Shown here piece after piece: positions 8,025 to 35,303 of a stretch of DNA of 64,000 nucleotides. Source of the DNA: Gammaproteobacteria bacterium (GTDB taxonomy: Bacteria; Pseudomonadota; Gammaproteobacteria; UBA5861); the NCBI GenBank assembly GCA_022360445.1, contig JAKSCV010000090.1, positions 1 to 64,000 on the forward strand. Direction: 5' to 3'. The stretch's first letter is position 1. Each line of letters starts with the position of its first letter. The notes beneath the pieces are model-generated. The model ran no database searches. It saw only the letters and a list, made by a program, of their open reading frames with translations, and was not told where the DNA came from. The translations under genes and the position numbers were made by a program.

Positions 8025-8240
8025 ATGTTAGAAACACTTTTTTTAGTATTCGGAATAATGGGACTTGCCTTGGTAGGCTTGAGTATGGGCGTAATTTTTA
8101 GTAACAAAGAGCTAAAAGGGAGTTGTGGTGGGATTGGGAATATCCCTGGACTTGAGTCAAACTGCCACTGTAAAACGCCCTGCGAAAAGAAACAGCAACT
8201 TCTTCGTACGGAAGAAAAAAAAATTATTTTTAGGAAGTGA
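8025..8240 (+). CDS. nqrM: Na+-NQR maturation protein NqrM
   Basis: A 71-residue protein with one N-terminal membrane helix (about 4-25) and four cysteines (34, 47, 49, 53) in the pattern GSCGG ... NCHCKTPC, the hallmark of the NqrM (DUF539) family. NqrM is needed to mature the pump, probably by delivering iron to the NqrD/NqrE centre. The ATG at 8025 is chosen because AAAGGA at 8013-8018 precedes it; an in-frame TTG at 8004 lacks support. It is the final gene of the nqr cluster. Confidence 0.92.
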   Translation: MLETLFLVFGIMGLALVGLSMGVIFSNKELKGSCGGIGNIPGLESNCHCKTPCEKKQQLLRTEEKKIIFRK

Positions 8241-8248
8241 CTTTACTT

Positions 8249-8267
8249 GATGCCATTAATTGGCATC
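8249..8267. terminator. Stem-loop between convergent nqrM and ptsN
   Basis: GATGCCA (8249-8255) and TGGCATC (8261-8267) form a perfect 7-bp stem with a 5-base loop. It lies at the junction of the convergent nqrM and ptsN genes and covers the ptsN stop codon. There is no long T-run on either side, so termination is inferred from position only. Confidence 0.4.
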
Positions 8268-8726
8268 TATGTTATCTGCTGACTCAAGAGTCTGAATAAT
8301 GTCTATTGGCTCTGAGGCCCCCCGTATTTTTTCTCTGAAATCACTTTCGTTGAATAAACTGGCTAAAGTGGCCAATAGTTGAAGGTGTTTTTCATTACAT
8401 TCAATGGGGACGAGAAGAGCAAAGATAATATCCACAGGCTGCTCATCTGGTGCTTCGAAATCCACGCCTGTTTCTAACGTTAATATAGCGATGATGGGTT
8501 TTTCGATATTTCCAATCCGGCCATGAGGCAGTGCGATGCCTTTACCCAAAGCAGTGCTCCCTAAGCGCTCTCTACTCAAGAGTATTTCAAATATTTTATT
8601 CGGTGACAGCCGTTTTTGACCTTCCGAAAGCAGCTCAGAGATGGCTTCCAATACACGCTTTTTACTGCTGTACTGTTGTTTGCAATGAGTACTTTGTTCA
8701 TTGGTAAGCGAGGAAATTTGGTACAT
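8256..8726 (-). CDS. ptsN: Nitrogen-PTS enzyme IIA (EIIA-Ntr)
   Basis: PtsN, 156 residues, is the terminal phospho-acceptor of the nitrogen phosphotransferase system and regulates potassium transport and other processes by protein contacts. The phosphorylated histidine is H68 in GKGIALPHGRI. It is the last gene of the rpoN-hpf-ptsN run, its standard location. Between it and hpf is a strong stem-loop (8757-8788) that could partly uncouple it from the upstream genes. No rapZ or ptsO follows; the neighbour is the convergent nqr cluster. Confidence 0.95.
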   Translation of the reverse strand: MYQISSLTNEQSTHCKQQYSSKKRVLEAISELLSEGQKRLSPNKIFEILLSRERLGSTALGKGIALPHGRIGNIEKPIIAILTLETGVDFEAPDEQPVDIIFALLVPIECNEKHLQLLATLASLFNESDFREKIRGASEPIDIIQTLESADNIDAN

Positions 8727-8756
8727 TTGTGTAAATGAGGTTTATTTTTAAAGGAT

Positions 8757-8788
8757 CAACTCCTACACAGGCCTTTGAGTAGGAGTTG
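8757..8788 (-). terminator. Strong stem-loop between hpf and ptsN
   Basis: CAACTCCTAC (8757-8766) and GTAGGAGTTG (8779-8788) form a perfect 10-bp stem with a 12-base loop. On the minus strand it is followed by ATCCTTTAAAAATAAA, a weak T-tract. It may act as an attenuating terminator or an RNA-processing site between hpf and ptsN. Confidence 0.45.
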
Positions 8789-8820
8789 GTTCGAGTGAAT
8801 TTTAAAGTCGAATTATATAA

Positions 8821-9153
8821 CTAATCGCTAAGACTATTTTGATGGATTGTTTGCTTTTCTTTTTTATGATGATCTTTCATTTTTTCTTTATGTTTAAGAA
8901 TTTGGCGATCAAGTTTGGCTGTTAAACTGTCGATTGCAGTGTACATATCCTCTTCCACAGATTCGGCAAATAGCGTATTGCCACTTACATTGATTGTGGC
9001 TTCCGCTTTTTGACGAAGTTTTTCTACACTGAGAATTACATTCGTCTTAGTCACATTATCAAAGTGCTTTTCAAGCTTGCTCATTTTGGATGAGACATAA
9101 TTTTTAAGTGAATCTGTCAGTTCTAAATGGTGACCAGTGACTACTAGATTCAT
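8821..9153 (-). CDS. hpf: Ribosome hibernation promoting factor
   Basis: A 110-residue protein of the HPF/YfiA family (short form). It starts MNLVVTGHHLELTDSLKNYV and has the characteristic beta-alpha-beta layout. It binds the 30S decoding region in stationary phase and promotes 100S dimers of inactive ribosomes. It lies between rpoN and ptsN, the classical order. The ATG at 9153 follows a GGAGA site. The gap to rpoN is 134 bases and contains the palindrome GCCGATTCGGC near 9187. Confidence 0.94.
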   Translation of the reverse strand: MNLVVTGHHLELTDSLKNYVSSKMSKLEKHFDNVTKTNVILSVEKLRQKAEATINVSGNTLFAESVEEDMYTAIDSLTAKLDRQILKHKEKMKDHHKKEKQTIHQNSLSD

Positions 9154-9287
9154 ACTTTTCTCCTTCGTTTGATGTGAATCGAATGGGCCGATTCGGCTTT
9201 TCTAAGAGACGTCGCATATTGGAATAAACAGTTATGGGTCATGATTATCCTCCCTTATGTGAGAGTGGATTTTTATTGTCATCATGA

Positions 9288-10790
9288 TCATGGGCTGATA
9301 TTTAAACGCTTTCTTTCGTTTGAAGGGGGTATGGCCATCGCCTCACGATATTTTGCGACAGTTCTTCTGGCGACATTGATACCAGTAGCAATCAGTGTGT
9401 CGGCGATTTTGCTATCGCTCAGTGGTTTTTCTATATTCTCAGCGGCAATGAGTTTGCGTATCATGGCGCGAATGGCTGTTGCAGAGCACTCACCACCGTC
9501 AGCAGTGGCGACATGACTTGAGAAAAAGTATTTGAATTCAAAGATTCCACGTGGAGTGTGCATAAATTTTTGGGTTGTGACACGTGAAATCGTAGACTCA
9601 TGCATGTCTACTTCTTCTGCTATATCGCGCAGCACCATGGGTTTCATCGCCTCTTCGCCATGTTCCAAGAAGCCTCGTTGACGCTCAACAATTGATTTTG
9701 CAACTTTTAATAGTGTGTCATTCCGGCTATGCAAGCTCTTAATAAACCAGCGGGCCTCCTGAAGGTGGGAACGAAGCAGGTTATTGTCTTCACTTTTATC
9801 AGAGCGTTTGATCATACTGGTGTATTGCTTGTTAATGCCAAGCTTTGGCGTAATATCTGGGTTGAGCTTTACGCGCCAAATTCCATTTTGTTTTTTGACA
9901 AAAATGTCAGGGGTGACATATTGAGCTTTTGTGCCTGAAACCTGTGAAGCGGGGCGGGGATTTAAGAGTTGAATCACGGAAATGGCGTCATGTAATTCCG
10001 TATCTGAGAGTTTTAACTGTTTTTTCAGCTTATTGTAATCGTGCGCTGCGAGTAGGGTGAGGTGCTGATCGACAATTTCTTTTGCATTGGGCAGCCCGGG
10101 TAGATTTTCGAACTCGGCAAGCTGGATCAGCATCGATTCTCTTAAGTCGCGTGCGGCAACCCCAGTCGGATCAAATTGCTGAATTAGGCGAAGAATGGCT
10201 TCCACTTCTTCAATGGAAATTTCCATTTCAGGGTTGGTGATGCGGCTGTTCAGCCCTTCCAGAATGTTTTCAATGCTGTCTTCAAGGTAACCGTCGTCGT
10301 TGATTGAGTCGATAATTGTCGTACCAATCAGAAAGTCTGTTTTGCTCAATGAACGCAGGTTCAGTTGCTCTTCTAGATAAGCACCCAGCGATTGATTGTC
10401 ACCGCTGTTGTACTCGGTGAAGTCGCGTATCACTTCATCGTTTTGAGTATTTCCGCCAGAAGAGGCGTATGAAGCGGTTTCGTAATGGTCATCCCATTCA
10501 CTATCAATTGGAAGCTCGTCAGGAATTTTTTGATCTTTCTCCGAAAATTCCAGCGAGTTGGATTCGTTTTCATCTGCTGTGTTCGCCCTTTCAGAAGAAC
10601 GATCATCATTCTGAGTGTTTTCGTTGTTTAAGGCTTCTTCTTCGACTTCGAGCATCAAGTTGGATTCAAGTGCTTCTTGAATTTCGGTTTGCAGTTCCAG
10701 CGTTGAAAGTTGGAGTAAGCGAATGGCTTGCTGGAGCTGTGGCGTCATCGCCAGGTGCTGGCCGATTTTTAATTGTAGTGATTGCTTCAT
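9288..10790 (-). CDS. rpoN: RNA polymerase sigma-54 factor
   Basis: RpoN, 500 residues, directs RNA polymerase to -24/-12 promoters with the help of AAA+ activators. Region I at the N-terminus is glutamine- and leucine-rich (MKQSLQLKIGQHLAMTPQLQQ), followed by an acidic linker (about 50-110) and the core-binding and helix-turn-helix regions. The diagnostic RpoN box reads ARRTVAKYRE at 474-483. It follows lptB with a 147-base gap that could hold its own promoter, and precedes hpf and ptsN. Confidence 0.98.
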   Translation of the reverse strand: MKQSLQLKIGQHLAMTPQLQQAIRLLQLSTLELQTEIQEALESNLMLEVEEEALNNENTQNDDRSSERANTADENESNSLEFSEKDQKIPDELPIDSEWDDHYETASYASSGGNTQNDEVIRDFTEYNSGDNQSLGAYLEEQLNLRSLSKTDFLIGTTIIDSINDDGYLEDSIENILEGLNSRITNPEMEISIEEVEAILRLIQQFDPTGVAARDLRESMLIQLAEFENLPGLPNAKEIVDQHLTLLAAHDYNKLKKQLKLSDTELHDAISVIQLLNPRPASQVSGTKAQYVTPDIFVKKQNGIWRVKLNPDITPKLGINKQYTSMIKRSDKSEDNNLLRSHLQEARWFIKSLHSRNDTLLKVAKSIVERQRGFLEHGEEAMKPMVLRDIAEEVDMHESTISRVTTQKFMHTPRGIFEFKYFFSSHVATADGGECSATAIRAMIRKLIAAENIEKPLSDSKIADTLIATGINVARRTVAKYREAMAIPPSNERKRLNISP

Positions 10791-10937
10791 ATGGTCATGA
10801 CTATAGTGATGTTATTTATATTTGTCGCGTTTTTTGTGCGTGTTAATTGACCTGAGACAAGCAACTGGTCCCCCGGATATTGGCTACTTTCACATATTAT
10901 CAGGTGCAGGCTATCTGACGACCTTGCACATAGCGTC

Positions 10938-11666
10938 TTATAACTTAAAATGCTGTCCAAGATAAACATCGCGTACTAGCTGGTTGGCCAAAATTGTTTC
11001 GGCGTTCCCTTCAGCAATGATTTCCCCATTACTTAAGATATACGCTCTATCACAGATATCAAGCATTTCTCTAACATTGTGATCAGTGATCAAAAGACCG
11101 ATATCACGCTGACACAGGTCTTTAATAATACGTTGTATTTCAATTACTGAAATAGGGTCAACACCGGCAAAAGGCTCATCCAGGAGCAGAAAATCGGGCT
11201 CGATGGCCAGTGCCCGGGCAATTTCAACCCGCCGCCTTTCTCCGCCAGAGAGACTGATCCCTAGACTGTCACGTATATGGGCTATTTGTAAATCCTCTAG
11301 CAGCTGCTCAAGCTTTTGGTGGCGCTGTTGCTTGTTAAGATCACGGCGAATCTCCAAGATAGCCATGATGTTATCGCGTACTGAAAGTTTTCGGAAAATG
11401 GAGGCTTCTTGCGGCAGATACCCCACTCCCAGGCGAGCGCGGAGGTGCATTGGGAGATAGGTGATTTCCCGATCAGACACAAAAATCTGTCCACGATCGG
11501 GTTTAACTAACCCCACCACCATATAAAAACACGTTGTTTTTCCTGTACCATTTGGGCCCAACAAGCCAACAATTTCACCACTATTGACGTGCAGCGACAC
11601 CCCTTGCAGTATTTCCCGCTTTTTATATTGTTTGAACAGCTGGCTTGCATTGAGTTGTTTGTTCAT
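10938..11666 (-). CDS. lptB: LPS export ABC transporter ATP-binding protein LptB
   Basis: LptB, 242 residues, is the ATPase that powers LPS extraction by LptFG and transport through LptC-LptA. It has Walker A GPNGTGKT (37-44), Q85 in the Q-loop, signature LSGGE (138-142), Walker B FLLLDEP (158-164) and a switch histidine in [12 protein letters not shown]. The start ATG overlaps the lptA stop by four bases (ATGA). Together with lptA and lptC it forms a coupled set. Confidence 0.97.
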
Positions 11667-12181
11667 TCTTCCGCAGACGGCCGTTGTGGTTGGATGATGA
11701 TTTGAACAGGCTGGCTGTCGGCAGGGCCTTTTCTGGCCGAGACAACTTGTGTATCCGTATTGTAAGTGATGATTTGTCCGCTGAGTTGTTGGTTTGGTTG
11801 GGTCAACTTTGCGTTGCCGGTTAAGGTGAGTAAAGTCTCCTCTGCGGAGTATTCGATCGTATTACTTTCACCGAAGACCATTTGTTGCTGGGCATTTAAT
11901 TGTTGAAACGTAACCGGCGTGCCTGTGCCATTCATTCGCTGTAATGCGCCTTGTTGTAAGTAGAGCACGATTTTATCGGCGCGAATGTTCAGGCTGCCTT
12001 GAGTGATGCGCACATTACCGGTGAGTGTTTGAACGCCATTCGGCTCATCGAATGTGGAATGATCGGCTTCAATTTTGATGGGCTGGTCGTTATCGGACTC
12101 AAGCGCCATAAGTGGAGATAGGAAAAAACCATGGCAGATTAAAACAAATAATGTCGGTCTTACGAACTTATTTAATAACAT
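11663..12181 (-). CDS. lptA: Periplasmic LPS transport protein LptA
   Basis: LptA, 172 residues, forms the periplasmic bridge that carries LPS from LptC to the outer membrane. An N-terminal signal peptide (about 1-27, ending near LSPLMALES) is followed by an OstA-type beta-jellyroll with the usual [20 protein letters not shown] opening. I choose the ATG at 12181 because AAGGA lies 10 bases upstream; an in-frame ATG at 12202 would overlap lptC further and lacks such a site. It overlaps lptC by 14 bases and lptB by 4. Confidence 0.92.
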
Positions 12182-12740
12182 CCGAATACATTCCTTTGAC
12201 ATTAGACAGCAGAGAGAACTGTCCCGTTGTCAGATTAGCGCTTAGCCCGTTAGCTTCCGCATGCCAACTTACTGATTGTAGCACCACGGGGTCATCTGTT
12301 TCTGCAAAGTGATCTTGTGTACGAATCTTTAAGTTACTGGTCATGATGGATAAACCAGGGTTGCTCTTTTTTTCTTGGCGTTGAATATCAACCTTCCCCA
12401 GCAAATGAATATATTCATTGTTTTTGGAAATCCAAGCGCGCTCAGCCACAATCTTCCACTGCGATGCATCTTTACCCGTCACGAATAAGGTCGGGTCGAT
12501 CACATCCGCTGTATCGGTATCTCGGTAGTGAATTAGTTTGTGGCCAGATAAGCTGTAATTCGGCTGGCCAAGTTCGTTGAGTTGAGTGATTTTGAAATTT
12601 TCTAAATAGTAGTCAACTTTTTTGCTGACATCGGCCTCGAAAGGATGTGTTCCATTGGATGGCTCGCGCTCAAACTGAACCCACACTGTCAGCATTAATA
12701 CCGCTAGCACAATACCCCATAGCCACAAACGTTTCCGCAT
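12168..12740 (-). CDS. lptC: LPS export protein LptC
   Basis: LptC, 190 residues, is a bitopic inner-membrane protein with one N-terminal helix (about 5-22) and a periplasmic beta-jellyroll, taking LPS from LptFG to LptA. Sequence similarity among LptC proteins is low, but length, topology and position directly before lptA and lptB make the call firm. Upstream is kdsD at 21 bases; the kdsC gene that often separates them is not present. Confidence 0.9.
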   Translation of the reverse strand: MRKRLWLWGIVLAVLMLTVWVQFEREPSNGTHPFEADVSKKVDYYLENFKITQLNELGQPNYSLSGHKLIHYRDTDTADVIDPTLFVTGKDASQWKIVAERAWISKNNEYIHLLGKVDIQRQEKKSNPGLSIMTSNLKIRTQDHFAETDDPVVLQSVSWHAEANGLSANLTTGQFSLLSNVKGMYSDVIK

Positions 12741-12761
12741 TAGAGGCTTCTCTCATTCAAA

Positions 12762-13733
12762 TTATGCGATACCCGCACGTAACAGCCCCAGCAAATTGAG
12801 GGCACCACATAACTGGTGATGACTATCCAGAACCAGTAAGGCATTAATTTTTCGGTTTTCCATAAGCTGTAGTGCTTCAGCGGCCAAAGTCATCGGTGTT
12901 GTCGTGATGCAATCAGGCGTCATCACTTCATGGATACGGGTGGTATGAATATTGATTTGTTTATCCAGTGCCCGGCGTAAATCGCCATCCGTGAAAATAC
13001 CTGCTAGCTTGTCCTCGGGCCCGGTGATAGCCGTCATGCCTAGACCTTTCTGGGTCATTTCCATCAATGCTTCTGCGACACTGGCATGCTCATGAATGAC
13101 TGGTATATCCGTGCCTGTATGCATAATATCTTTTACGTGCAGTAACAGCCTTCGCCCCAAGGTTCCACCCGGATGAGACTTGGCAAAATCTGTTTCAGTA
13201 AAACCACGACTTTCCAGTAAGGCTACAGCCAGTGCATCGCCCATGACAAGCGTTGCTGTGGTGCTTGAGGTAGGCGCGAGGCCCAAGGGGCAGGCTTCTT
13301 TGGTAACACTGACATCGAGATGGATATTTGCAGCCTTGGCCAGGCCAGAGGCAGGCTCCCCTGTCATCGCAATCATGGGGACGCCAAGTTGTTTAATCAT
13401 GGGTACAATGGTAAGCAATTCATGCGTTTCTCCCGAGTAAGACAAAGCGAGAACCACATCCTTGGTTGTGATCATCCCAAGGTCACCATGACTGGCTTCT
13501 CCCGGATGAACAAAAAATGCCGGTGTGCCTGTGCTGGCCAGGGTGGCGGCTATTTTCCCACCAATATGGCCGGACTTCCCCATACCAGTTACAACGATAC
13601 GGCCTTGACAAGCCAATATGATTTCGCAGGCCGCACTAAAATCATCATTGATGCGAGTGATGAGACTGGCAATCGCTTCCGCTTCTGCTTCAATCACAGC
13701 ACGGGCTAACCTGAGCACATTGTCTTTATTCAT
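12762..13733 (-). CDS. kdsD: D-arabinose-5-phosphate isomerase
   Basis: KdsD, 323 residues, converts ribulose-5-phosphate to arabinose-5-phosphate, the first step to Kdo for LPS. An N-terminal SIS sugar-isomerase domain (with ALSYSGETHELL and the GHIGGKIAATLASTGTPAFF block) is followed by two CBS domains (about 205-323). It sits between yrbG and lptC as in enterics, but the Kdo-8-phosphate phosphatase kdsC is missing between it and lptC. Spacing to yrbG is 9 bases. Confidence 0.95.
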   Translation of the reverse strand: MNKDNVLRLARAVIEAEAEAIASLITRINDDFSAACEIILACQGRIVVTGMGKSGHIGGKIAATLASTGTPAFFVHPGEASHGDLGMITTKDVVLALSYSGETHELLTIVPMIKQLGVPMIAMTGEPASGLAKAANIHLDVSVTKEACPLGLAPTSSTTATLVMGDALAVALLESRGFTETDFAKSHPGGTLGRRLLLHVKDIMHTGTDIPVIHEHASVAEALMEMTQKGLGMTAITGPEDKLAGIFTDGDLRRALDKQINIHTTRIHEVMTPDCITTTPMTLAAEALQLMENRKINALLVLDSHHQLCGALNLLGLLRAGIA

Positions 13734-13742
13734 TTGTATGAC

Positions 13743-14711
13743 CTAACTGTCGAGAAAAACAGCACCTTGGTAGCCCAAAAAACAAACTAAAAGTAGCAAG
13801 CCACTGGTGCGAGTGATTCGACCTGGGCGATTTTTCCAGCTATAGGCGAACAGTATCATGACAAATGTTAGCGCAAACATGACTGGTATATCCCGATACA
13901 AGACAACTGAGTCCACCGCTACCGTCTGAAACAAGCCCGGTACTGCCATAACGGCCAAAATATTGAAAATATTTGACCCAATGATATTGCCAATAGCAAT
14001 GTCGTACTCTTTTTTCAGAACACTGACGATGGAGGCGGCCAGCTCTGGCAAGCTGGTGCCAATCGCTACAATCGTGAGTCCAATGACTAAATCACTGACA
14101 CCAAAGTAGGTCGCAATATTACTCGCTCCCCAAACAAGTGCTCGGGAGCTGCCCACTAAAATGAAAAGACCGACCATCAGCCACAGGCAGGCTACTTTGA
14201 GTGTCATGTTCGTCGAGATTTCATCATTAAATTCACTTTGCAATGGGTCGCCGTTATCCCGTTCTTTTAGACCTTTATAGATCATCCAGACGAGAATAAA
14301 GGCGAGTAACGCCAGTAAAAAATACGCGTCAAGTGCACTGAGTGAAAGGTTCCATATCAGTATCAGTGCCAACAACATCGCGGCGATAAGAAAAGGCATC
14401 TCTCGGTTCAAAATACCCGATGAAATCAACATCGGAGAAATCAGTGCCGAGGTGCCTAATATGAGGCCAATATTGGCAATATTTGAGCCGATTGCATTAC
14501 CGACGCCCATGGCTGGAATATCCTGAAGCGCGGAAAACACAGAGATTAGTATCTCTGGTGCGGAAGTGCCAAAGCCGACAATTGTCAAACCAATAACTAA
14601 GGGGCTGACGCCCAAATTACTGGCGATACTCGAAGCACCGATCACAAAGCGATCAGCGCTCCATACAAGTAAAATAAAGCCGCCGATAACAGCCGCGAGA
14701 GAAATCAACAT
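13743..14711 (-). CDS. yrbG: Calcium/sodium antiporter family protein (YrbG-like)
   Basis: A 322-residue inner-membrane protein with about ten hydrophobic segments and two inverted Na/Ca exchanger domains. Each carries the ion-binding signature: GFGTSAPEILIS in the first half and AIGTSLPELAASIVS in the second. The family exchanges Ca2+ for Na+ or H+; the substrate here is inferred. It heads the run yrbG-kdsD-lptC-lptA-lptB. The separate mla genes often found beyond yrbG are not here. Confidence 0.92.
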   Translation of the reverse strand: MLISLAAVIGGFILLVWSADRFVIGASSIASNLGVSPLVIGLTIVGFGTSAPEILISVFSALQDIPAMGVGNAIGSNIANIGLILGTSALISPMLISSGILNREMPFLIAAMLLALILIWNLSLSALDAYFLLALLAFILVWMIYKGLKERDNGDPLQSEFNDEISTNMTLKVACLWLMVGLFILVGSSRALVWGASNIATYFGVSDLVIGLTIVAIGTSLPELAASIVSVLKKEYDIAIGNIIGSNIFNILAVMAVPGLFQTVAVDSVVLYRDIPVMFALTFVMILFAYSWKNRPGRITRTSGLLLLVCFLGYQGAVFLDS

Positions 14712-14802
14712 AATGTGTAGCGTGATTGTCCGAATTTATGTAAAAGGACGCATTACACCTGAAAGGTGTCTGCATTGTCCACCCTAGTATACCCTTGGGG
14801 TT

Positions 14803-15339
14803 TTAAAGGCCTTCTGTATTATTGGCGGGTGTCGGTGGATTCGTTTTTAGCGTGTATTTTAGACGAATGAATTCAGGTTCTTTCCATACCAGTGTGACGG
14901 ACCAGCCAGGTTGTGACCAGCTCGCTTTGGCAACCCCTTTACCGGCTTTTAAAGCGTTTAAGCGGGAACTTCTGGAGGTTGCGTAGGCCGGGAAAGTGGA
15001 TAGGTCTGTTGCTCGACCATACAGCCTGATGAGCTTAACTTTCCAATCTGTGAAATTCAGCCAGTCGCCGGGGGGCTCATACCGTTCGACAGCAATGACG
15101 GTATTGTCTTGGGCTAAAACATTCACATGTTTTCCAGAAACGGAAAACTCATAGCGGGTGGTTCCGTCGTCTTCCTGTTTTGTAGTTGAGGGTTCTGCAG
15201 ACACCAACGTGTCTATGGTGCCACCCAAACAAAACTGATTGAATACACGTTTTACGCAGGTTTCCGCGTGTGCCGTTTGAAAAAAAAGCGGCCACAACAA
15301 AATAAGATTGAACTTTGATAAAGTGATTAATTTTTTCAT
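14803..15339 (-). CDS. Exported protein of unknown function
   Basis: A 178-residue protein I do not recognise. It has a clear Sec signal peptide (MKKLITLSKFNLILLWPLFF then cleavage near AHA-ETC), so it is probably periplasmic; the mature part begins with cysteines in ETCVKRVFNQFCLGG. The rest is polar with many aromatic residues. I use the ATG at 15339; a longer reading from 15435 would overlap the divergent holA start. Its stop lies 91 bases from the yrbG start. In many relatives lptE lies next to holA, but this protein has neither a lipobox nor the opposite orientation expected. Confidence 0.7.
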   Translation of the reverse strand: MKKLITLSKFNLILLWPLFFQTAHAETCVKRVFNQFCLGGTIDTLVSAEPSTTKQEDDGTTRYEFSVSGKHVNVLAQDNTVIAVERYEPPGDWLNFTDWKVKLIRLYGRATDLSTFPAYATSRSSRLNALKAGKGVAKASWSQPGWSVTLVWKEPEFIRLKYTLKTNPPTPANNTEGL

Positions 15340-25303: not shown

Positions 25304-26467
25304 ATGCTTAACTTTAATGCAGAGCAACAACAAATTCGTGAAAGTGTTTTGAAAATATGCAACCGTTTTGATGAGCACTATTGGTTGGCGCGTGATACGG
25401 ACGGAGTTTTTCCTGAGGATTTTTGTCGAGCATTGGCCGATGATGGCTGGTTGGGCATTGCCATGCCAGAGGAAGTGGGTGGAAGTGGGTATGGGATTAC
25501 AGAAGCGGCCATTATGGTTCAGGCTATTTCGGAATCCGGTGCGGCCAACAGTGGTGTTTCTGCCGTGAGCTTGCCTTTGTTTGGGGTAAATCCAGTGGCT
25601 GTTTTTGGCACACCAGAACAAAAACAGCGAATGTTACCGCCTATTCTGAACCGAACGGATATTGCGTGCTTTGGTGTCACAGAGCCGAACACAGGGCTCG
25701 ACACAACCCGGTTGAAAACCCAAGCGGCGCGTAAGGGTGACTATTACGAAGTTCATGGCCAGAAAATCTGGACATCGACGGCACAGGTTGCTAATAAAAT
25801 CATGCTGATCGCCAGAACGACGCCGGAATCATCGACTAAACGCCCCATTGATGGTCTATCACTTTTCTTTACAGACTTGGATCGAAACTGCGTTGAAATT
25901 AGAAAAATTGAAAAGATGGGGCGTAAGTGTGTTGATTCAAACCAGGTATTCATTGATGGCTTGAAAATTCCAGTCGAAGATCGGATTGGCGAAGAAGGCA
26001 AAGGTTTCAAATACTTGCTACATGGGTTAAACCCAGAGCGCATATTGATTGCGGCAGGTTTGGTCGGCTTAGGGCGTATCGCGTTGAAAAGAGCTTGTGA
26101 ATACGCCAAAACACGTATCGTTTTTGATCGCCCTATTGGACAGAACCAGGGAATACAACACCCATTGGCTGAGTGCTGGACTGAGCTTGAAGCCGCTAAT
26201 CTGGTGGTTTTCAAAGCCGCAACCTTGTATGACCAGCAACAAGAGTGTGGTGCTTATGCCAATGCAGCCAAGTACCTGGCCGCCGAAGCTGCGTTTAAAA
26301 CCTGCACACAGGCAGTGATGACACATGGTGGAATGGGGTATGCAAAAGAATTCCATGTGGAGCGCTATTTGCGTGAATGTTTGATTCACCGGCTTGCGCC
26401 GATCAGCCCACAATTGATTATGTGTTTTATTGCTGAAAAGGTACTGGGGCTCCCCAAGTCTTATTAA
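25304..26467 (+). CDS. Acyl-CoA dehydrogenase family protein
   Basis: A 387-residue flavoprotein with the three-part acyl-CoA dehydrogenase fold: N-terminal helices, a middle beta domain containing CFGVTEPNTGLDTTRLKT and KIWTSTAQVANKIM, and a C-terminal helical domain with MTHGGMGYAKEFHVERYLRE. The usual catalytic YEG glutamate position is replaced by a LAPISPQLI segment, so the base must lie elsewhere or the substrate differs from standard fatty acyl-CoAs. The ATG follows a G-rich ribosome site (GGGGGGTAAAGG). It opens the acyl-CoA metabolism region to the right. Confidence 0.9.
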   Translation: MLNFNAEQQQIRESVLKICNRFDEHYWLARDTDGVFPEDFCRALADDGWLGIAMPEEVGGSGYGITEAAIMVQAISESGAANSGVSAVSLPLFGVNPVAVFGTPEQKQRMLPPILNRTDIACFGVTEPNTGLDTTRLKTQAARKGDYYEVHGQKIWTSTAQVANKIMLIARTTPESSTKRPIDGLSLFFTDLDRNCVEIRKIEKMGRKCVDSNQVFIDGLKIPVEDRIGEEGKGFKYLLHGLNPERILIAAGLVGLGRIALKRACEYAKTRIVFDRPIGQNQGIQHPLAECWTELEAANLVVFKAATLYDQQQECGAYANAAKYLAAEAAFKTCTQAVMTHGGMGYAKEFHVERYLRECLIHRLAPISPQLIMCFIAEKVLGLPKSY

Positions 26468-26865: not shown

Positions 26866-27318
26866 TTAATACTCGACAACTTCTTTACGCATTAAAAAAG
26901 TGGCTTCGAATGAGGCCACCTCGGCATCTTCTTCATTAATGACGCCAACGCCGACTTTCATAACGCCTCGTTTACCGTCAGAGGTGTCTCTTTTTTCCAA
27001 AATCGTGACGCGAGTTCTCAAAGTCGCACCGGGTTTGACAATCTTTTTGAAGACAAAGTGATCCAATTGCAGGGCAGCGAGGATATTGGCTCCCAGTACC
27101 CCCTCCATCATGCCGACCGCATAAGCTGCAGTCAGCAACCCTGGCGTGATGCGCCCGCCATAAGGTGTGTGTTTGCGGCAAAAGTGGTCGTCGGTGAATA
27201 CGGGAAGTTTGATGCCCGTTACACAGGTAAAGTTGACAATATCTGCTTCGGTGATAGTGCGGCCGAGTGTATCAATCACTTGCCCCACCTCAAAGTGATC
27301 AAATGGAATCGCTTGCAT
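26866..27318 (-). CDS. MaoC-family (R)-specific enoyl-CoA hydratase-like protein
   Basis: A 150-residue single hotdog-fold protein of the MaoC family. The hydratase motif region reads VFTDDHFCRKHTPYGGRITPG, with the Asp and His at the positions of the catalytic pair, though the later IAHG element is altered to ITPG. Members hydrate or dehydrate acyl-CoAs. Transcribed away from the CitE-like gene, from a shared 207-base gap; the ATG follows an AGGAGG-like site. Its substrate is unknown. Confidence 0.85.
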   Translation of the reverse strand: MQAIPFDHFEVGQVIDTLGRTITEADIVNFTCVTGIKLPVFTDDHFCRKHTPYGGRITPGLLTAAYAVGMMEGVLGANILAALQLDHFVFKKIVKPGATLRTRVTILEKRDTSDGKRGVMKVGVGVINEEDAEVASFEATFLMRKEVVEY

Positions 27319-27525
27319 TTTTTCCTCCTGGGTTTGAATTATTCTATGTCAGAAAATAGGTTTTGAACGCCCCGTTTTCATTGTATTTCTTGGGTTGCTT
27401 TTTATAGCGGATCTGTAATTTTTCTTTTTTTCGGGTAAAATTTTAAGTTTAAAAATCTTGGCTCGAACGTGAACCCATGTCTCGGCCATATTAACGTACA
27501 TATTGTCCAACGTGGAGGAAGAACT

Positions 27526-28797
27526 TTGTCCAAATTTGATTCAATAGCGAAAAAGGCTCAGGAAGAACGTCAAAAATTACTCGCTCAGCGGGCCCAAGCC
27601 TGTGCCGATATGCCTTTGCGTTTTTGGAACCAGCAAGCTCACTTTACAACACCGGCCAGCGGCTCCCCTGAAAAAGCGATTACAGGCTTAAGCGCAGCAG
27701 GAAAAATTCTGGCGCGTTTCAATATTACAGTTGATGAGTTGGCTGATTTTTCGGGCGCCAACAAAACAACGTTAAAAGCACTAATTGATGGTGGCAATAA
27801 AAACTCGCCCTTGGTGATGGTTGATGCTGAAGATGCCGTGGCATTGACAGATGATTCGTCAGTGAAGGCGCGCGAGGGTGCCACGCGTGTTTTTTCTCAG
27901 GAAAAATGGGGTTCAACACTGGCATTTTTTAGACCTTCTGGTTTGGGTTTGGACACCTGCGTCGGTGATCTACTTGAAGTACTGCCCGCAGTGGCTGAAG
28001 GCGCATCACCAAAAGACTACCCGATAGACGGAATCATCTGGCCGAAATCTGAACACCCTGAAGAAATTACCTGGGTTTGTCACCTGCTGAGCCAGGTCGA
28101 AGAGCAGTTGGGGTTGGAACAAAATCAGATTAAATTTCAGTTTCTTGTTGAGTCAGGCTATGCACTGAGTCAGTTGGCAGAACTGGCCAAAGCAGCAGCT
28201 CCCCGCCTTGTTGGCATTATCTGGGGAATTGCTGATTACAGCGCAGATGCTAATCTGCCGATTATTCGCAATGACCACCCGGTTTGTGATTGGGCGCGTT
28301 ACGAAATTGTCAATCTCGCGGGAGCATTGAATGTACCTGCGATTGATTGTATGACGCTGAACTACCCGACACCTGTCCATCGCGGCAGTGATCTGACGGC
28401 TGAGCAGCAGGAAGAAAATAAGCAAAAAATTCTGAAAGCCCTGAAAGACGTTTATGATGAAGCAATGCACGGTATTAATCTGGGCATGGCGGGTAAATGG
28501 GTGGGCCACCCTGCGCAGTTGTTGATGGTGATGGCGGCTTATCAGAATGCGATCCCTCAGTCTCAGATCGATAGCGATCTGGCGGAGATTGAAGCGTACA
28601 ATAAGGCTGTGGCGTCAGGGTCCGGAGCGACGATGATCGGTGAAGGCAGCAAAGAATACATGGCGGATAGGGCAACAGACCGGCACTTACGTGCCCGGTT
28701 GCGTCGGGCCACCGCTTGGGGTGCTTTGAGTGCTGATAAAGCGTTCAGTTTAGGTATTATCACTGAGCAGGAAAAGAATGATCTTGCAGGCCAGTAA
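27526..28797 (+). CDS. HpcH/HpaI aldolase / CitE-type CoA-ester lyase
   Basis: A 423-residue TIM-barrel lyase. The acidic metal-site motif VDAEDAV near residue 90, the later FLVESGYALSQL block and the C-terminal GMAGKWVGHPAQL fit the CitE/malyl-CoA lyase group. It is longer than the ~320-residue malyl-CoA lyases. The TTG at 27526 is used because a full GGAGG (27514-27518) precedes it by 7 bases; the upstream ATG at 27469 lacks a site. Being next to mesaconyl-CoA hydratase and methylsuccinyl-CoA dehydrogenase-like genes, it is a good candidate for cleaving methylmalyl-CoA to glyoxylate and propionyl-CoA; this is inference. Confidence 0.82.
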   Translation: MSKFDSIAKKAQEERQKLLAQRAQACADMPLRFWNQQAHFTTPASGSPEKAITGLSAAGKILARFNITVDELADFSGANKTTLKALIDGGNKNSPLVMVDAEDAVALTDDSSVKAREGATRVFSQEKWGSTLAFFRPSGLGLDTCVGDLLEVLPAVAEGASPKDYPIDGIIWPKSEHPEEITWVCHLLSQVEEQLGLEQNQIKFQFLVESGYALSQLAELAKAAAPRLVGIIWGIADYSADANLPIIRNDHPVCDWARYEIVNLAGALNVPAIDCMTLNYPTPVHRGSDLTAEQQEENKQKILKALKDVYDEAMHGINLGMAGKWVGHPAQLLMVMAAYQNAIPQSQIDSDLAEIEAYNKAVASGSGATMIGEGSKEYMADRATDRHLRARLRRATAWGALSADKAFSLGIITEQEKNDLAGQ

Positions 28798-28820
28798 CAC
28801 GCCATAATCTAACGCATTTA

Positions 28821-28840
28821 AAGGGAGCTTTTGCTCCCTT
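28821..28840 (+). terminator. Stem-loop between the lyase and mesaconyl-CoA hydratase-like genes
   Basis: AAGGGAGC-TTTT-GCTCCCTT is a perfect 8-bp stem with a 4-base loop, followed by CTTCATTT. It lies 24 bases after the lyase stop. The poor T-run suggests partial termination or transcript protection rather than a full stop. Confidence 0.5.
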
Positions 28841-28882
28841 CTTCATTTAAGGGCAGATGCTTGCCCCTGAGGACAGTTCACT

Positions 28883-29965
28883 ATGAATAAAGCAAGTCGA
28901 GGCAATTTTTTTGAAGATTTTGTAGTGGGGCAAAAGCTCGTCCATGCCGTGCCCCATACCATCACAGAAGGCAATACCGCATTGTACATTTCACTGACGA
29001 TTGATCGACACCCTCTGTTTTGTGATGCTGAGTTCGCACGCGGATTAGGGTTTCAAAGAGAATTGGTACACGACCTGTTGGTGTTTCATACTGTTTTTGG
29101 GAAAAGTGTTTCAGATATTTCCTTAAATGCGGTGGCTAATTTGGGATATGCCGACCTGCGTTTCCTGCAACCAGTCTATGTGGGCGATACCTTACGCGCA
29201 GAATCAGAAGTGATCGGGAAGCGTGAAAACAGCAATGGGAAAAGCGGCATCGTGTATGTGCAGACCAAAGGCTATAACCAAAATGATGAGCAAGTACTGC
29301 AATTTTATCGCTGGGTTATGGTGCATAAATCGGACACCTCGACCCCAACAGGTGACAATCAAGTCCCTGATTTGCCAGCTGTCGTCAGCGCAGATCAGCT
29401 TGTGGTGCCTGATCAGCTCGACCTCAGTGGGTTTGATGCAAGTCGAACCGGAGGCCGTTGGGGGTTTGAAGACTACCGGGTAGGCGAACGGATTCACCAT
29501 TTGGTGGGGATGACAATTGAAGACAGTGATCATATGAGTGCAACACGCTTGTATCAAAATACGGCCAAACCTCATTTTGACCTGCACCTAGTCAGGCAAA
29601 CCGGTGGTGAACGTCGGCTCGTCTATGGTGGCCATATCATTTCACTTGCTTATTCCCATGCGTTCAACGGGTTGGAAAATGCCTTACACCTGCTGGCCTG
29701 GAACAGTGGCACACACAGCAACCCAAGCTATGCTGGGGATACCATTTATGCTTTTAGTGATGTACTGGACGCGGCTGAGCTACCGGGCCGAAATGATCTG
29801 GGTGCATTGAGGTTGCGGATGGTGGGTGTGAAAAATCATAACCCTGCTGAAAGTGATATCGACATTGAGATTGAGCAGAATGGTAAAAGTAAATACCACC
29901 CGAATGTCGTACTTGACCTCGATTACTGGGTAGCTGTGCCTAAAAAGTCGGTCATTGGAGGATAA
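28883..29965 (+). CDS. mch: Mesaconyl-CoA hydratase-like double MaoC protein
   Basis: A 360-residue protein with two MaoC hotdog domains (about 1-160 and 190-345). It strongly recalls mesaconyl-CoA hydratase of the ethylmalonyl-CoA pathway: GNFFEDFVVGQKL at the start, SLNAVANLGYADLRFLQPVY, SEVIGKRENSNGKSGIVYV, SATRLYQNTAKPHFD and VYGGHIISLA. That enzyme interconverts mesaconyl-CoA and beta-methylmalyl-CoA. The next gene starts five bases after its stop and looks like methylsuccinyl-CoA dehydrogenase, which would make its substrate. The identification is from remembered family patterns. Confidence 0.85.
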   Translation: MNKASRGNFFEDFVVGQKLVHAVPHTITEGNTALYISLTIDRHPLFCDAEFARGLGFQRELVHDLLVFHTVFGKSVSDISLNAVANLGYADLRFLQPVYVGDTLRAESEVIGKRENSNGKSGIVYVQTKGYNQNDEQVLQFYRWVMVHKSDTSTPTGDNQVPDLPAVVSADQLVVPDQLDLSGFDASRTGGRWGFEDYRVGERIHHLVGMTIEDSDHMSATRLYQNTAKPHFDLHLVRQTGGERRLVYGGHIISLAYSHAFNGLENALHLLAWNSGTHSNPSYAGDTIYAFSDVLDAAELPGRNDLGALRLRMVGVKNHNPAESDIDIEIEQNGKSKYHPNVVLDLDYWVAVPKKSVIGG

Positions 29966-29970
29966 ATGAG

Positions 29971-31596
29971 ATGAGCTTGGACGCCATTGAATACTGCCAA
30001 GCCATCTACGATACGGCGTTGGAAAGCGTAAAAAAATTAACTGGGAATGGCCGTAACGTTGATGATCATCAGGTGATCGCCCGTGAGATTGCACAACTAT
30101 CGACACAGCTTTCGGCGGCCAAGGCCTTGCAGGCTTATGCTGATCAGGCGGTGGGGAAGCCGGGGTGCGATGCCAAGAGACTCGGCACCGCCGCTGATAT
30201 TTTTTTGGCCGAAACCGTAGAAAACTTCCGCCAGATTGCGAACCGTTGTTTTCAATCCTTTGGCCTGAATGAAACGACACTGGCTTACGGGGGCTCATTG
30301 CAAACCTGGTTACGCCAAACGCTTGCGGAGTCTCATTACCGGACCATCGGCGTTGATGTACTTGAAGATGCCGAAAACTGGCAATGGATTGCTTCGAGCA
30401 CCGATGGGGAGGAAGAAGCAGAAATTCGCGACTCAACCCGCCGCTTTGCCCGCGATGTCGTTGCGCCAAAAGCGGAAGAAATCCACCGCAAAGATCTGTT
30501 AGTCCCAGAGAGCTTTTTACAACAGATGTCTGAACTGGGCTATTTCGGCATGTCTGTTCCTGTCGAATTTGGGGGAGTGGGCCTCAGCTATTTGATGATG
30601 CTCCTGGTCACCGAAGAGCTTTCCTCGGCTTCTTTACCTGCTGCGGGCAGCATCATCACCCGGCCTGAAATTTTAACCCGTGCATTGCTGAAAGGAGGCA
30701 CAGAACAGCAACGAAAAAAGTGGCTAGAGCCTATTGCCAAAGGTGAGGTTATGGTGGGTATCAGCGTCACTGAACCCAATGTCGGTTCCGATGTGGCCAG
30801 CGTCTCGTGCCGTGCGAGCGAAACCGTTTTAAATGGTCAACGTGGTTATCTTATCAATGGTGCCAAGGCTTGGTGTACTTTTGCAGGTCGGGCTAATGTA
30901 CTGGCTTTATTAGCCCGAACGGGGGAAGCCGGCCATAAAGGGCTATCACTTTTTATTGTCGAAAAAGACCCCTTTACGGGCCACGTGTTTCAAATGAACC
31001 AGCCGGGTGGTGGATCTTTGCAGGGCGAAGCCATTGATACCATGGGATACCGCGGCATGCACTCCTACGTGCTGCAATTCGACAACTACTTCGTCCCTGC
31101 TGAAAATCTGGTGGGAGAGGAAGAGGGTGTGGGCAAAGGCTTCTACTACCAAATGAATGGTTTTGCCATTGGCCGTTTACAAACGGCAGGGCGTGCAGTT
31201 GGGCTTGGTCAGGCGGCGCTGGAAGCTACGGTGAAATACGCCAATGATCGTCCTCAGTTCGGCCAGTCCTTAGCATCATTTCAGAATACACAGTATGTGA
31301 TTGGGAAAATGTTTGTGCACTTGGAGGCGAGCCGTCAGTTGAGCTATGCCGCAGGGCGGGCTATGGATGACAATGACGCCTCAGCAAACATTATGGCCTC
31401 CCAAGCAAAACTGTTGGCCTGTCGGATGGCTGTAAATCTTGCCCAACAGGGTCAGCTATTGCATGGCGGATGGGGATATGCTGAAGAATATGCGATCTCC
31501 CGCTATGTGGCAGACTCTCTGGTCCTGCCCATTTTTGAAGGGGTTGAACCGATTCTGGAAATGAAAGTGATTGGGCGGGGGTTGCTTGCCGACTAA
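29971..31596 (+). CDS. mcd: Methylsuccinyl-CoA dehydrogenase-like acyl-CoA dehydrogenase
   Basis: A 541-residue acyl-CoA dehydrogenase with an extra ~150-residue helical N-terminal part before the normal fold. That extension and overall size are hallmarks of methylsuccinyl-CoA dehydrogenase, which oxidises (2S)-methylsuccinyl-CoA to mesaconyl-CoA. Core motifs are ISVTEPNVGSDVAS, MGYRGMHSYVLQFD, IGRLQTAGRAVGLGQAALEA and LLHGGWGYAEEYAISR; the likely catalytic base is E523 in IFEGVEP. It follows mch by five bases and its end overlaps the reading frame of the exonuclease gene, suggesting one transcript. Confidence 0.82.
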   Translation: MSLDAIEYCQAIYDTALESVKKLTGNGRNVDDHQVIAREIAQLSTQLSAAKALQAYADQAVGKPGCDAKRLGTAADIFLAETVENFRQIANRCFQSFGLNETTLAYGGSLQTWLRQTLAESHYRTIGVDVLEDAENWQWIASSTDGEEEAEIRDSTRRFARDVVAPKAEEIHRKDLLVPESFLQQMSELGYFGMSVPVEFGGVGLSYLMMLLVTEELSSASLPAAGSIITRPEILTRALLKGGTEQQRKKWLEPIAKGEVMVGISVTEPNVGSDVASVSCRASETVLNGQRGYLINGAKAWCTFAGRANVLALLARTGEAGHKGLSLFIVEKDPFTGHVFQMNQPGGGSLQGEAIDTMGYRGMHSYVLQFDNYFVPAENLVGEEEGVGKGFYYQMNGFAIGRLQTAGRAVGLGQAALEATVKYANDRPQFGQSLASFQNTQYVIGKMFVHLEASRQLSYAAGRAMDDNDASANIMASQAKLLACRMAVNLAQQGQLLHGGWGYAEEYAISRYVADSLVLPIFEGVEPILEMKVIGRGLLAD

Positions 31597-32509: not shown

Positions 32510-32671
32510 ATATCTGTTTGTTAATGGTCGTGTCATTTAAAATTTAACCTTTTATTAAACAGTGTTATAGTTTTTAGGCCAATAAGAATTAAAAAATGGG
32601 GTAGCTGATCGGGTTACCCGCACTTATAAAAAAATATCAATCGGTTGATAGATAATATGGAGGAGACCGTT

Positions 32672-33574
32672 TTGACACTGAAAACAAGACCCCTTTCCAA
32701 TGCTGTAGGTACCGAAATTCTGGGCTTTGACATGGCGGCACCGGTGAGTGACGAGATGATCGAGGAACTTAAGCAGCATTGGGCCGAAACAGGTTTATTG
32801 CTTTTTAAGAACCAGAAGCTCACACCTGAGCAGCAGATTGCTTTCGCACGCCGCTTTGGCCCTTCGGCCCCAACACCAGGTGTAACACGCTACCTTCTGG
32901 ATGGTTATCCCGAGTTATTTGTCATTGCAAATCGGGATGCAGAGGGGAATTTATTGGAAACGCGTGAAACGGCGAGACAATGGCATTCGGATCACTCGTT
33001 TAAAATTAAGCCCAGCACAGGTTCGTTGCTGTACTGCAGAAAAATGCCGCCAGTAGGCGGTAACACCATGTATGCCAATATGAACCAAGCGTATGATGCG
33101 TTGTCGGATGGGATGAAAGAGTTGATCGAGAACTTAATGGCTGTTCATGATGTCGATAATGTTAAAGACATGAAGAACCGAGCGCCCAGAACGCCTGAAG
33201 AACGGGCCAGCACGCCACCTATTGCACACAGAATGGTCATTACGCACCCGGTAACAGGGAGAAAAGCGCTTTATGTCTCCGAAATGTTTACAGATTACAT
33301 TGAAGGCATGACAAAAGAGGAAAGTGCGACGATTCTGAATTATCTGTTCCAGCATTCTGTTCGACCAGAGTTCACCTATCGTCACCAGTGGGATATTGAT
33401 GATGTGCTGATGTGGGATAATCGGGTGGTGATGCACTTTGCACCACGTGATTATGATCCTAACGACCCAGCTCCCGATAACTGGCGCTATATGTTGCGAG
33501 CAACAATTGACCCATGGGATGATGAAAATGCATTCCCCGAGCAAGAGTATTCGTACAAGGTAACTTTGGGGTGA
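32672..33574 (+). CDS. TauD/TfdA-family Fe(II)/2-oxoglutarate dioxygenase
   Basis: A 300-residue dioxygenase with the Fe ligands H105 and D107 in WHSDHSF, the distal H255 in VVMHFAPRD, and R276 in RYMLRATI for binding 2-oxoglutarate. Relatives hydroxylate taurine, alkyl sulfates, 2,4-D, carnitine precursors and other small acids; the substrate here cannot be told. I prefer the TTG at 32672, 7 bases after GGAGGAG (32659-32665), which is part of the ATG-GAG-GAG of the longer reading from 32645 or 32657. A 135-base gap upstream can hold a promoter. Confidence 0.88.
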   Translation: MTLKTRPLSNAVGTEILGFDMAAPVSDEMIEELKQHWAETGLLLFKNQKLTPEQQIAFARRFGPSAPTPGVTRYLLDGYPELFVIANRDAEGNLLETRETARQWHSDHSFKIKPSTGSLLYCRKMPPVGGNTMYANMNQAYDALSDGMKELIENLMAVHDVDNVKDMKNRAPRTPEERASTPPIAHRMVITHPVTGRKALYVSEMFTDYIEGMTKEESATILNYLFQHSVRPEFTYRHQWDIDDVLMWDNRVVMHFAPRDYDPNDPAPDNWRYMLRATIDPWDDENAFPEQEYSYKVTLG

Positions 33575-33589
33575 TATGAGTTAAAGTGA

Positions 33590-33634
33590 GCATGCTACAC
33601 GGTCGAGTCACGGTTATTTATCTGTGTAGCGTGC
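33590..33634. terminator. Long inverted repeat at the dioxygenase / enoyl-CoA hydratase junction
   Basis: GCATGCTACAC (33590-33600) pairs with GTGTAGCGTGC (33624-33634), 10 of 11 perfect and the other a G-T wobble, around a 23-base loop. It lies between two convergent genes and runs into the end of the hydratase gene. It may be a bidirectional terminator, though no T-run follows. Confidence 0.35.
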
Positions 33635-34411
33635 TTCTCGCTTTTCTTTGAATGCGGCAACACCTTCGTCAAAAAAACCGGAGGTGGCGCATAGAATTTG
33701 TCCTCGATCCTCAAGTGCAATGGTGGCCTCCAGGCTTCCTGCGTCTTGCGCCATATTGAGGCCTTCTTTCGTTAACCTTAGCCCGAGTGGCGACATACCC
33801 AACATGTCTTGCGCCAGTCGTTCACCTTCATTGGCAAGATGTCCCTCCGGGAAAACGTCGGATACCAAACCGATTGCATAGGCTTTTTTTGCATCGACAA
33901 ACCGTCCGCTCATCATCAAGTGGGCTGCATTGGAGATGCCAACGGCGCGTGGTAAAAAGTAACTGATACCCATGTCGCACCCAGTGAGTCCGACGCGGCT
34001 CATCGCCACATTCATACGTGCATTATCAGTGGCGAGCCGGACATCGGCCGCTAACGCCAGTGCAAACCCTCCGCCTGTCGCGGCACCATGTATAAGCGCG
34101 ATAATGGGCTGTGGGCATCGTCGCATCCGCATAATAATCTCACTGACTTTGCGTTGACCTCGTAGTGCTGTGGGTGGGGGTGCGGTAATACTGTCAGTGG
34201 CGTCGAGGTCAAAACCGGCGCAGAAGTGTTTCCCTGCTCCCGACAAGAGCACAGTGCGTGTTGTATGCTCAGTGTATAGGTGGGCAAAATAATCTAATAG
34301 CTCGTCACACAGTGTGTCGTTTAACGCATTAAGTTTTTCAGGACGGTTAAGTGTGAGGTGGTCAATCCCGTCTGCGTGGGAAACAGAGAGGTTTGTATAC
34401 TGCTGGGACAT
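33614..34411 (-). CDS. Enoyl-CoA hydratase/isomerase family protein
   Basis: A 265-residue crotonase-fold protein. The oxyanion-hole segments are seen as AGKHFCAGFDLDA and IHGAATGGGFALALAADVR. The catalytic glutamate positions of true hydratases are not both obvious, so it could be an isomerase or another crotonase type. It follows the class II aldolase gene on the minus strand by 106 bases and converges with the dioxygenase gene. Confidence 0.88.
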   Translation of the reverse strand: MSQQYTNLSVSHADGIDHLTLNRPEKLNALNDTLCDELLDYFAHLYTEHTTRTVLLSGAGKHFCAGFDLDATDSITAPPPTALRGQRKVSEIIMRMRRCPQPIIALIHGAATGGGFALALAADVRLATDNARMNVAMSRVGLTGCDMGISYFLPRAVGISNAAHLMMSGRFVDAKKAYAIGLVSDVFPEGHLANEGERLAQDMLGMSPLGLRLTKEGLNMAQDAGSLEATIALEDRGQILCATSGFFDEGVAAFKEKREARYTDK

Positions 34412-34517
34412 GTTGTCTCCTCAGATTCTTATGGATTAAGGGGGAAGACAGACAGGAGTTGCCACCCCGTATCGTTTGGGCACAGGGTGACGTCAATATT
34501 GTGGTGATGAAGTAATG

Positions 34518-35303
34518 CTATGTCGCGTAGTTGGACCCGGCACGTTCCAGCTGGCGTAATAGGGCAGGCCACTCTTTTTTACCGCATTCAGCAAAGCCGC
34601 CTTCTGCAAGTATTTTTCGCCCTTGTTCGACAGCGTGTGCTTGCGTTGCTTTATCAGGATAGTGAAGTTGAGCGCCGCCTGTCATAGTTGCCAATTGGTA
34701 TCGGCATGATTTTTCAATACGGTACATCCACATAAACGCTTCGCCCATGGATTTGCCCACAGTTAGTAAGCCATGATTGTTGAGAATGAGAATGCGTTTG
34801 TGGGCTTCTCCAAAGTCGCGAATGATACGTTCGCGTTCACCCAAGTTCGTCGCGGCACCTTCAAACTCGTGATAGGAAATAAAATCCTGAATTAACAGGG
34901 AGTGCTGATTCAAGGGCAGCAACCCGTGCTCTTGAGAGCCAACGGCACAACCGGCAGGTGTGTGGGTGTGCATGACACATGTCAACTCTGGAAAGTGCAT
35001 ATGAATCGCACTATGGATTACGAACCCAGCAGGATTGGTCGGGTAGTCACTGTCGCCAATGACGTTACCTTCCATATCAACCTTGATTAATGAAGAGGCC
35101 GTAATCTCTTCAAAGAGCATGCCATAAGGGTTTAGTAGAAAATGGTCCTCGGGACCCGGGATGCGCGCCGAGATATGTGTGCCTACCATATCGGTCCACC
35201 CATACATAGCTGTGAGCTGGTAGCAGGCGGCTAGCTCAACGCGGGTTTGCCACTCAGTTTCTGTCATATTGTTTGGAATGTTCTGTAGTGCAGATGTACT
35301 CAT
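34518..35303 (-). CDS. Class II aldolase/adducin family protein
   Basis: A 261-residue protein of the class II aldolase/adducin fold (fuculose-phosphate aldolase type). Metal ligands appear as HTH in VMHTHTPAG and a later His in ILNNHGLLTVG. Members cleave or epimerise sugar phosphates, or decarboxylate; many in acyl-CoA or aromatic clusters are uncharacterised. It begins a two-gene minus-strand set with the enoyl-CoA hydratase and has its own 176-base upstream region containing the palindrome ATGATTCAATCAT. Confidence 0.85.
   Translation of the reverse strand: MSTSALQNIPNNMTETEWQTRVELAACYQLTAMYGWTDMVGTHISARIPGPEDHFLLNPYGMLFEEITASSLIKVDMEGNVIGDSDYPTNPAGFVIHSAIHMHFPELTCVMHTHTPAGCAVGSQEHGLLPLNQHSLLIQDFISYHEFEGAATNLGERERIIRDFGEAHKRILILNNHGLLTVGKSMGEAFMWMYRIEKSCRYQLATMTGGAQLHYPDKATQAHAVEQGRKILAEGGFAECGKKEWPALLRQLERAGSNYAT

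Follow-up and report, generated by a model that had tools for sequence, protein, structure and literature searches.

In a 64,000-nucleotide stretch of a gammaproteobacterial genome (lineage UBA5861; assembly GCA_022360445.1, contig JAKSCV010000090.1, positions 1 to 64,000; hereafter the window), we found a trio of adjacent genes encoding a long CitE-superfamily lyase, a mesaconyl-coenzyme A (CoA) hydratase (Mch) and a (2S)-methylsuccinyl-CoA dehydrogenase-type enzyme (Mcd). We interpret these genes, leaning moderately towards this reading, as a catabolic "lower ethylmalonyl-CoA" module that runs without the ethylmalonyl-CoA pathway and serves the breakdown of methylsuccinate (or mesaconate) via a C1-CoA ester. 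The free acid would be activated in trans by a CoA-transferase, after which Mcd would oxidize methylsuccinyl-CoA to mesaconyl-C1-CoA, with electrons leaving through electron-transferring flavoprotein (ETF), and Mch would hydrate mesaconyl-C1-CoA to beta-methylmalyl-CoA. The long lyase would then cleave beta-methylmalyl-CoA to glyoxylate and propionyl-CoA, which malate synthase G and methylmalonyl-CoA mutase would bring into the citric acid cycle. The open reading frames of all three genes were recovered on the forward strand where the original prediction had placed them (Table 1).

That prediction hinged on Mcd and Mch belonging with characterised enzymes of their kinds, and both fell inside those groups. 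For Mcd, the acyl-CoA dehydrogenase core begins at about residue 147, leaving an N-terminal extension of about 146 residues (roughly 150 had been claimed), and its closest solved relatives are 8ciw (9e-119), annotated as a (2S)-methylsuccinyl-CoA dehydrogenase and originating from Pseudomonas migulae, and 6es9 (2e-84). A profile of Mcd and its relatives covered 8ciw from 13 to 548 and 6es9 from 12 to 547, hence their full length including the extension, while ordinary acyl-CoA dehydrogenases aligned to it only from about position 150; because close relatives of 8ciw went into the profile, its score against that structure is inflated. In 6es9, the Paracoccus Mcd (PdMCD), the substrate carboxylate is bound by R252, R376 and R421 and the catalytic residue is E535 (PMC5798300), and by alignment all four are kept in the window enzyme as R231, R361, R408 and E523. 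The extension and these conserved residues support its assignment to the (2S)-methylsuccinyl-CoA dehydrogenase type. Within the dehydrogenase tree, the window Mcd belongs to a clade of its own (support 99/99), separate from a sister clade (97/98) that holds 8ciw and the enzymes linked to crotonyl-CoA carboxylase/reductase (Ccr).

The hydratase is 53% identical to 4e3e (E=2e-113) and 47% identical to 8hgn (E=2e-98). Eight residues line the malate/mesaconyl site of the Methylorubrum enzyme MeMeaC (F71, S79, N85, R142, N226, H231, Y248 and G249; PMC10164722), and 8/8 are kept in the window protein, which supports the mesaconyl-CoA hydratase identity already offered in the original prediction, here of the Chloroflexus/Methylorubrum type.

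Assigning the first gene was less direct. Its Pfam matches are partial (PF22484, DUF6986, 66 bits; PF01274, the malate synthase barrel, 52 bits; PF03328, HpcH/HpaI, 43 bits), and the top Protein Data Bank (PDB) matches of a profile built on it are malyl-CoA/beta-methylmalyl-CoA lyases (5ugr at 5e-15, 4l9y at 8e-14, 4l7z at 1e-10), with a single-sequence phmmer search reaching 5ugr at 4e-11 and the profile also matching the malate synthase 3s9i (2e-6). It lies outside the characterised malyl-CoA lyase (Mcl) sub-families, as the top NCBIfam model, that of haloarchaeal Mcl, scores 58 bits where the cut-off is 500. Membership of the CitE superfamily, judged from these matches, is clear but remote. 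The residues of malyl-CoA lyase MCLR that are conserved through the superfamily (E44, D45, R76, E141, D168 and D299; PMC3832036) correspond to E102, D103, R136, E209, D237 and D381, the lid aspartate D381 being placed by alignment to 5ugr, and all are invariant among the lyase's relatives; these residues do not tell lyases from malate synthases. Compared with solved malyl-CoA lyases the protein is about 75-90 residues longer (about 100 in the original prediction), and on our reading of the alignment the added length is mainly N-terminal and between the first two barrel strands. An AlphaFold model built from 7 sequences (mean pLDDT 65, pTM 0.61) had malyl-CoA lyases as its top Foldseek matches (TM about 0.36-0.46, rmsd >10 A), which lends weak support for that fold given the low confidence of the model. 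From the catalytic residues and operon context, together with weak sequence kinship, a malyl-/beta-methylmalyl-CoA-type lyase is plausible; the CitE-type identity originally proposed thus holds for superfamily and catalytic residues, with only remote kinship and no characterised Mcl sub-family to place it in.

To place the module in the metabolism of its host, we considered the whole genome (completeness 97.9%). No Ccr exceeded the cut-off in this genome or in that of its sister species, the best matches scoring 24-44 bits against a cut-off of 378, while the identical search was positive in three other genomes of the class (G199, G069 and G039). Ethylmalonyl-CoA mutase (Ecm) was likewise not recognisable: in G199 the mutase near Ccr has an RTY-GHS motif (RTYSGHS), which all four PF01642 proteins of the window's genome lack; this G199 enzyme is called Ecm-like by context and motif and has no match to an Ecm-specific model; G069 also has a mutase near its Ccr. 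The genome does encode isocitrate lyase (1047 bits) and malate synthase G (1274 bits), so the ethylmalonyl-CoA pathway is not needed for growth on acetate, and malate synthase G together with methylmalonyl-CoA mutase (1316 bits) would make both glyoxylate and propionyl-CoA usable. The original prediction had noted the carboxylase/reductase and mutase missing from the window; Ccr and a recognisable Ecm are missing genome-wide as well. Its "partial ethylmalonyl-CoA-type module" stands as a description of anatomy and not of a pathway. The genome also has 22 matches to class III CoA-transferases.

Relatives pointed to a candidate substrate. The long lyase occurred in 5 of 369 genomes of an even sample of the class, and in a phylum-wide sample of 398 genomes in the window's own genome only; a genome-contig scan for the lyase gave at least four named loci, and the relatives named here are a lower bound. 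In the class sample it was present in all five genomes with a window-clade Mcd and in none of the 6 with an Mcd of the other clade, an association that is suggestive and, resting on two lineages only, not statistically strong. Window-clade Mcd occurs in the window's genus, in a second family (f151, three genomes) and in a distant metagenome-assembled genome (MAG), L069. In f151, Mcd adjoins a CoA-transferase (L055 9343-10524 in one case) 58-62% identical to one encoded on contig C71 of the window's genome (L034 9284-10528), and the two of these f151 proteins that were scanned best matched succinyl-CoA:mesaconate CoA-transferase, below the curated cut-off. One f151 genome (G356) has the order MmgE/PrpD, lyase, Mcd, CoA-transferase, and the other two (G151 and G262) carry the lyase elsewhere than beside Mcd. 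L069 has lyase, Mch, Mcd, an AMP-forming ligase and a CoA-transferase, and another MAG (L070) has lyase then Mch, where its contig ends. A second species of the window's genus keeps the gene order of the trio in the same place, with proteins 95-98% identical, and the conservation of the trio in this sister species and in distant MAGs is not chance. A Haloarcula enzyme of the same family as these CoA-transferases converts mesaconate to the C1 ester only and has a higher kcat/Km for methylsuccinate than for mesaconate (PMC5592240), which is consistent with the predicted C1 regiochemistry. The original prediction had offered methylsuccinate, mesaconate or itaconate breakdown as its alternative to the ethylmalonyl-CoA pathway, and methylsuccinate/mesaconate breakdown is the better supported of the two readings because of the CoA-transferase linkage in relatives. 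One further MAG contig (L071, 932-2560) has a lambda-family phage portal protein gene just upstream of a partial long-lyase gene, and may be chimeric or span a prophage edge.

Several observations weigh against methylsuccinate/mesaconate catabolism by the trio. No CoA-transferase, transporter or pathway regulator adjoins the three genes in the window, and the lyase and Mch genes are set apart by the stem-loop at 28821-28840. The f151 genomes possess lyase and Mcd with no Mch homologue (best MaoC match 2e-10), so the three enzymes need not occur together, and the kinship of the lyase to known malyl-CoA lyases is, as described, remote. In the methyl pocket of Mcd, A285 and F287 of PdMCD are replaced by I264 and V266; this difference does not exclude methylsuccinyl-CoA, because the Ccr-linked Mcd of three genomes of the class vary there too (V-A-V or I-A-F). 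Finally, contig C71 (L034, C71:42001-61000; 8356-14123) encodes MmgE/PrpD, MaoC, acyl-CoA dehydrogenase, MaoC, CoA-transferase and CitE proteins, a cluster that looks complete as a C5-dicarboxylate route of its own, such that the trio may handle another substrate. Apart from an additional MaoC gene, it has the composition of the pseudomonadal itaconate/methylsuccinate cluster (PMC12290011), and its order recurs on a Paracoccus plasmid (L115) beside a TRAP transporter gene, with 41-63% identity. The hydratase of the C71 cluster is seemingly split, one MaoC gene matching the N-terminal and the other the C-terminal half of Mch.

Another candidate substrate is a different 2-substituted succinyl-CoA, such as an alkylsuccinyl-CoA released when branched-chain compounds or isoprenoids are degraded, which the trio would convert to glyoxylate and a longer acyl-CoA. 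The varying methyl-pocket residues and the very divergent lyase would suit this idea, as would the extension-bearing Mcd-type enzymes in thiolase/hydratase catabolic operons (Variovorax SRS16, with a related, shorter-annotated protein in Sphingobium TomTYG74). We nonetheless consider it unlikely, since Mch retains every pocket residue of the C5-specific hydratases, to which it is 47-53% identical, and the CoA-transferases neighbouring Mcd in f151 are of the mesaconate/itaconate type. More broadly, Mcd-type dehydrogenases are found on Paraburkholderia, Variovorax and Sphingobium plasmids (L112, L113 and L114) in catabolic operons with a CoA-transferase, ETF, thiolase or Mch/CitE, with no Ccr visible in those stretches, and a wider substrate range for the family is possible.

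The long CitE protein could also be malate-synthase-like or thioesterase-like, in which case the trio would end in a free acid; its matches to malate synthases (PF01274, 3s9i) and the catalytic residues common to lyases and synthases would allow this. With malyl-CoA lyases as its top profile and fold matches (the latter from the low-confidence model), a malate synthase G already in the genome, and a setting beside Mch and Mcd, we judge such a function quite improbable. About as little weight falls on internal salvage, whereby promiscuous carboxylation would turn butyryl-CoA into ethylmalonyl-CoA, an unusual mutase encoded on contig C78 would rearrange this to methylsuccinyl-CoA, and the trio would recover the product. 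On that contig (L033, C78:72001-92000; 5908-14930), two mutase large subunits of dicarboxylyl type, sharing 71% identity, are encoded together with a single B12 subunit and a MeaB GTPase; a class III CoA-transferase and enoyl-CoA hydratases are also present, and the locus is conserved in the sister species. Both large subunits keep the Tyr and Arg that bind the free carboxylate and have AGAH or SQAH in place of the usual SGYH. Their identification as Ecm was not supported, as they lack the Ecm-like motif and have no homologue of comparable identity in f151, whose genomes have the lyase and Mcd in common with the window's, and the CoA-transferase and enoyl-CoA hydratases of the operon suggest a different pathway. 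Service in the ethylmalonyl-CoA pathway itself is strongly disfavoured: Mcd and Mch are of that pathway's types, and Ccr, Mcd and an Ecm-like mutase do occur elsewhere in the class, but the window's genome and its sister have no Ccr, no mutase of the former has the Ecm-like motif, its glyoxylate shunt is complete, and its Mcd lies outside the Ccr-linked clade.

Among described systems, the trio shares with the lower ethylmalonyl-CoA pathway of Rhodobacter, Methylorubrum and Paracoccus (Mcd, Mch, Mcl) the same type of Mcd with extension and arginine cluster, the same type of Mch with all pocket residues, and a lyase that agrees in superfamily and catalytic residues; it differs in a genome without Ccr or recognisable Ecm, an Mcd of another clade with other methyl-pocket residues, and a distant, longer lyase. 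The pseudomonadal itaconate/methylsuccinate cluster consists of Ict, Ich, a C4-type Mcd, an MmgE/PrpD isomerase and Ccl (PMC12290011), and likely has the methylsuccinate substrate and activation by a class III CoA-transferase in common with the trio; laboratory Pseudomonas putida is stated in that paper to be naturally without the itaconate cluster. That cluster proceeds through a C4-CoA ester with an ordinary dehydrogenase lacking the extension, and a citramalyl-CoA lyase yields acetyl-CoA and pyruvate, whereas the trio belongs to the C1-ester type, with glyoxylate and propionyl-CoA as its expected products. In the haloarchaeal methylaspartate cycle (Mct, Mch, HaloMCL; PMC5592240), Mch and Mcl belong to different sub-families, and the cycle lacks an Mcd step. 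In other sampled genomes, five loci (L063-L067, in G160, G085, G208, G247 and G062) have the same type of Mch with no Mcd or long lyase, and ordinary CitE-type genes adjoin it in several, possibly as a glyoxylate route like that of the 3-hydroxypropionate bi-cycle; in three Mch/CitE-type clusters reminiscent of it (L063, L064, L066), Mch is 52-53% identical to that of the window, and their genomes, unlike the window's, have neither long lyase nor Mcd at the thresholds used.

Table 1. Coordinates of the trio and nearby features in the window.
Feature	Position	Strand	Basis
Ordinary acyl-CoA dehydrogenase upstream of the trio; module membership doubtful	25304..26467	+	About 30% to Mcd
Divergent single-domain MaoC protein upstream of the trio, 150 aa, possibly unrelated	26866..27318	-	PF01575; distant to Mch
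GGAGGA ribosome-binding site of the lyase gene	27513..27518	+	Sequence; 7 nt before the TTG start at 27526
Long CitE-superfamily lyase, 423 aa, TTG start; candidate beta-methylmalyl-CoA lyase	27526..28797	+	Profile matches, catalytic residues
8-bp stem-loop, terminator- or attenuator-like, between the lyase and Mch genes; T tail weak	28821..28840	+	Sequence
Mesaconyl-CoA hydratase (Mch), 360 aa, double-hotdog	28883..29965	+	PF19315, PDB homology, pocket residues
(2S)-Methylsuccinyl-CoA dehydrogenase-type enzyme (Mcd), 541 aa with N-terminal extension	29971..31596	+	PDB homology, conserved residues

The Mch gene starts with ATG at 28883, and that of Mcd with ATG at 29971, 5 nt past the Mch stop and with a GGAGGA of its own. 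Genes around the trio are housekeeping, with a 5'-3' exonuclease gene closely 3' of Mcd and then a TauD-type dioxygenase gene; the latter, together with enoyl-CoA hydratase and class II aldolase genes (32645-35303), is kept in the sister species and has no evident link to the trio. Recent lateral transfer left no sign, as the GC fraction of the trio (0.47-0.52) equals that of its flanks and its location is unchanged in the sister species; that lyase and Mcd are spread patchily through the class still points to transfer or loss further back in time.

The surprise first expressed at finding such enzymes in a gammaproteobacterium is weakened, both by the Pseudomonas origin of 8ciw and by genomes of the class that carry Ccr and Mcd together (G199, G069 and G039; L088, L089 and L058-L060). 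Two of these, G199 and G069, have the Ecm-like mutase near Ccr mentioned above and encode, next to Mcd, a distant Mch-like protein of 391 aa, which suggests a full ethylmalonyl-CoA pathway in some genomes of the class. What sets the window apart is that a C1-type Mcd occurs where Ccr is absent, in association with a lyase family that is new and, in relatives, with CoA-transferases. That bacteria possess an undescribed, Ccr-independent route taking methylsuccinate/mesaconate, as C1-CoA esters, to glyoxylate and propionyl-CoA, and that its beta-methylmalyl-CoA lyases form a new family, rare, deeply divergent and found only with one Mcd clade, is a larger claim that we put forward tentatively, giving it slightly less credence than its denial. 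If it is true, Mcd and Mch alone would be no proof of an ethylmalonyl-CoA pathway, a second methylsuccinate route would exist alongside the C4 route, and synthetic CO2-fixation cycles built on these steps would gain a new source of lyases and dehydrogenases.

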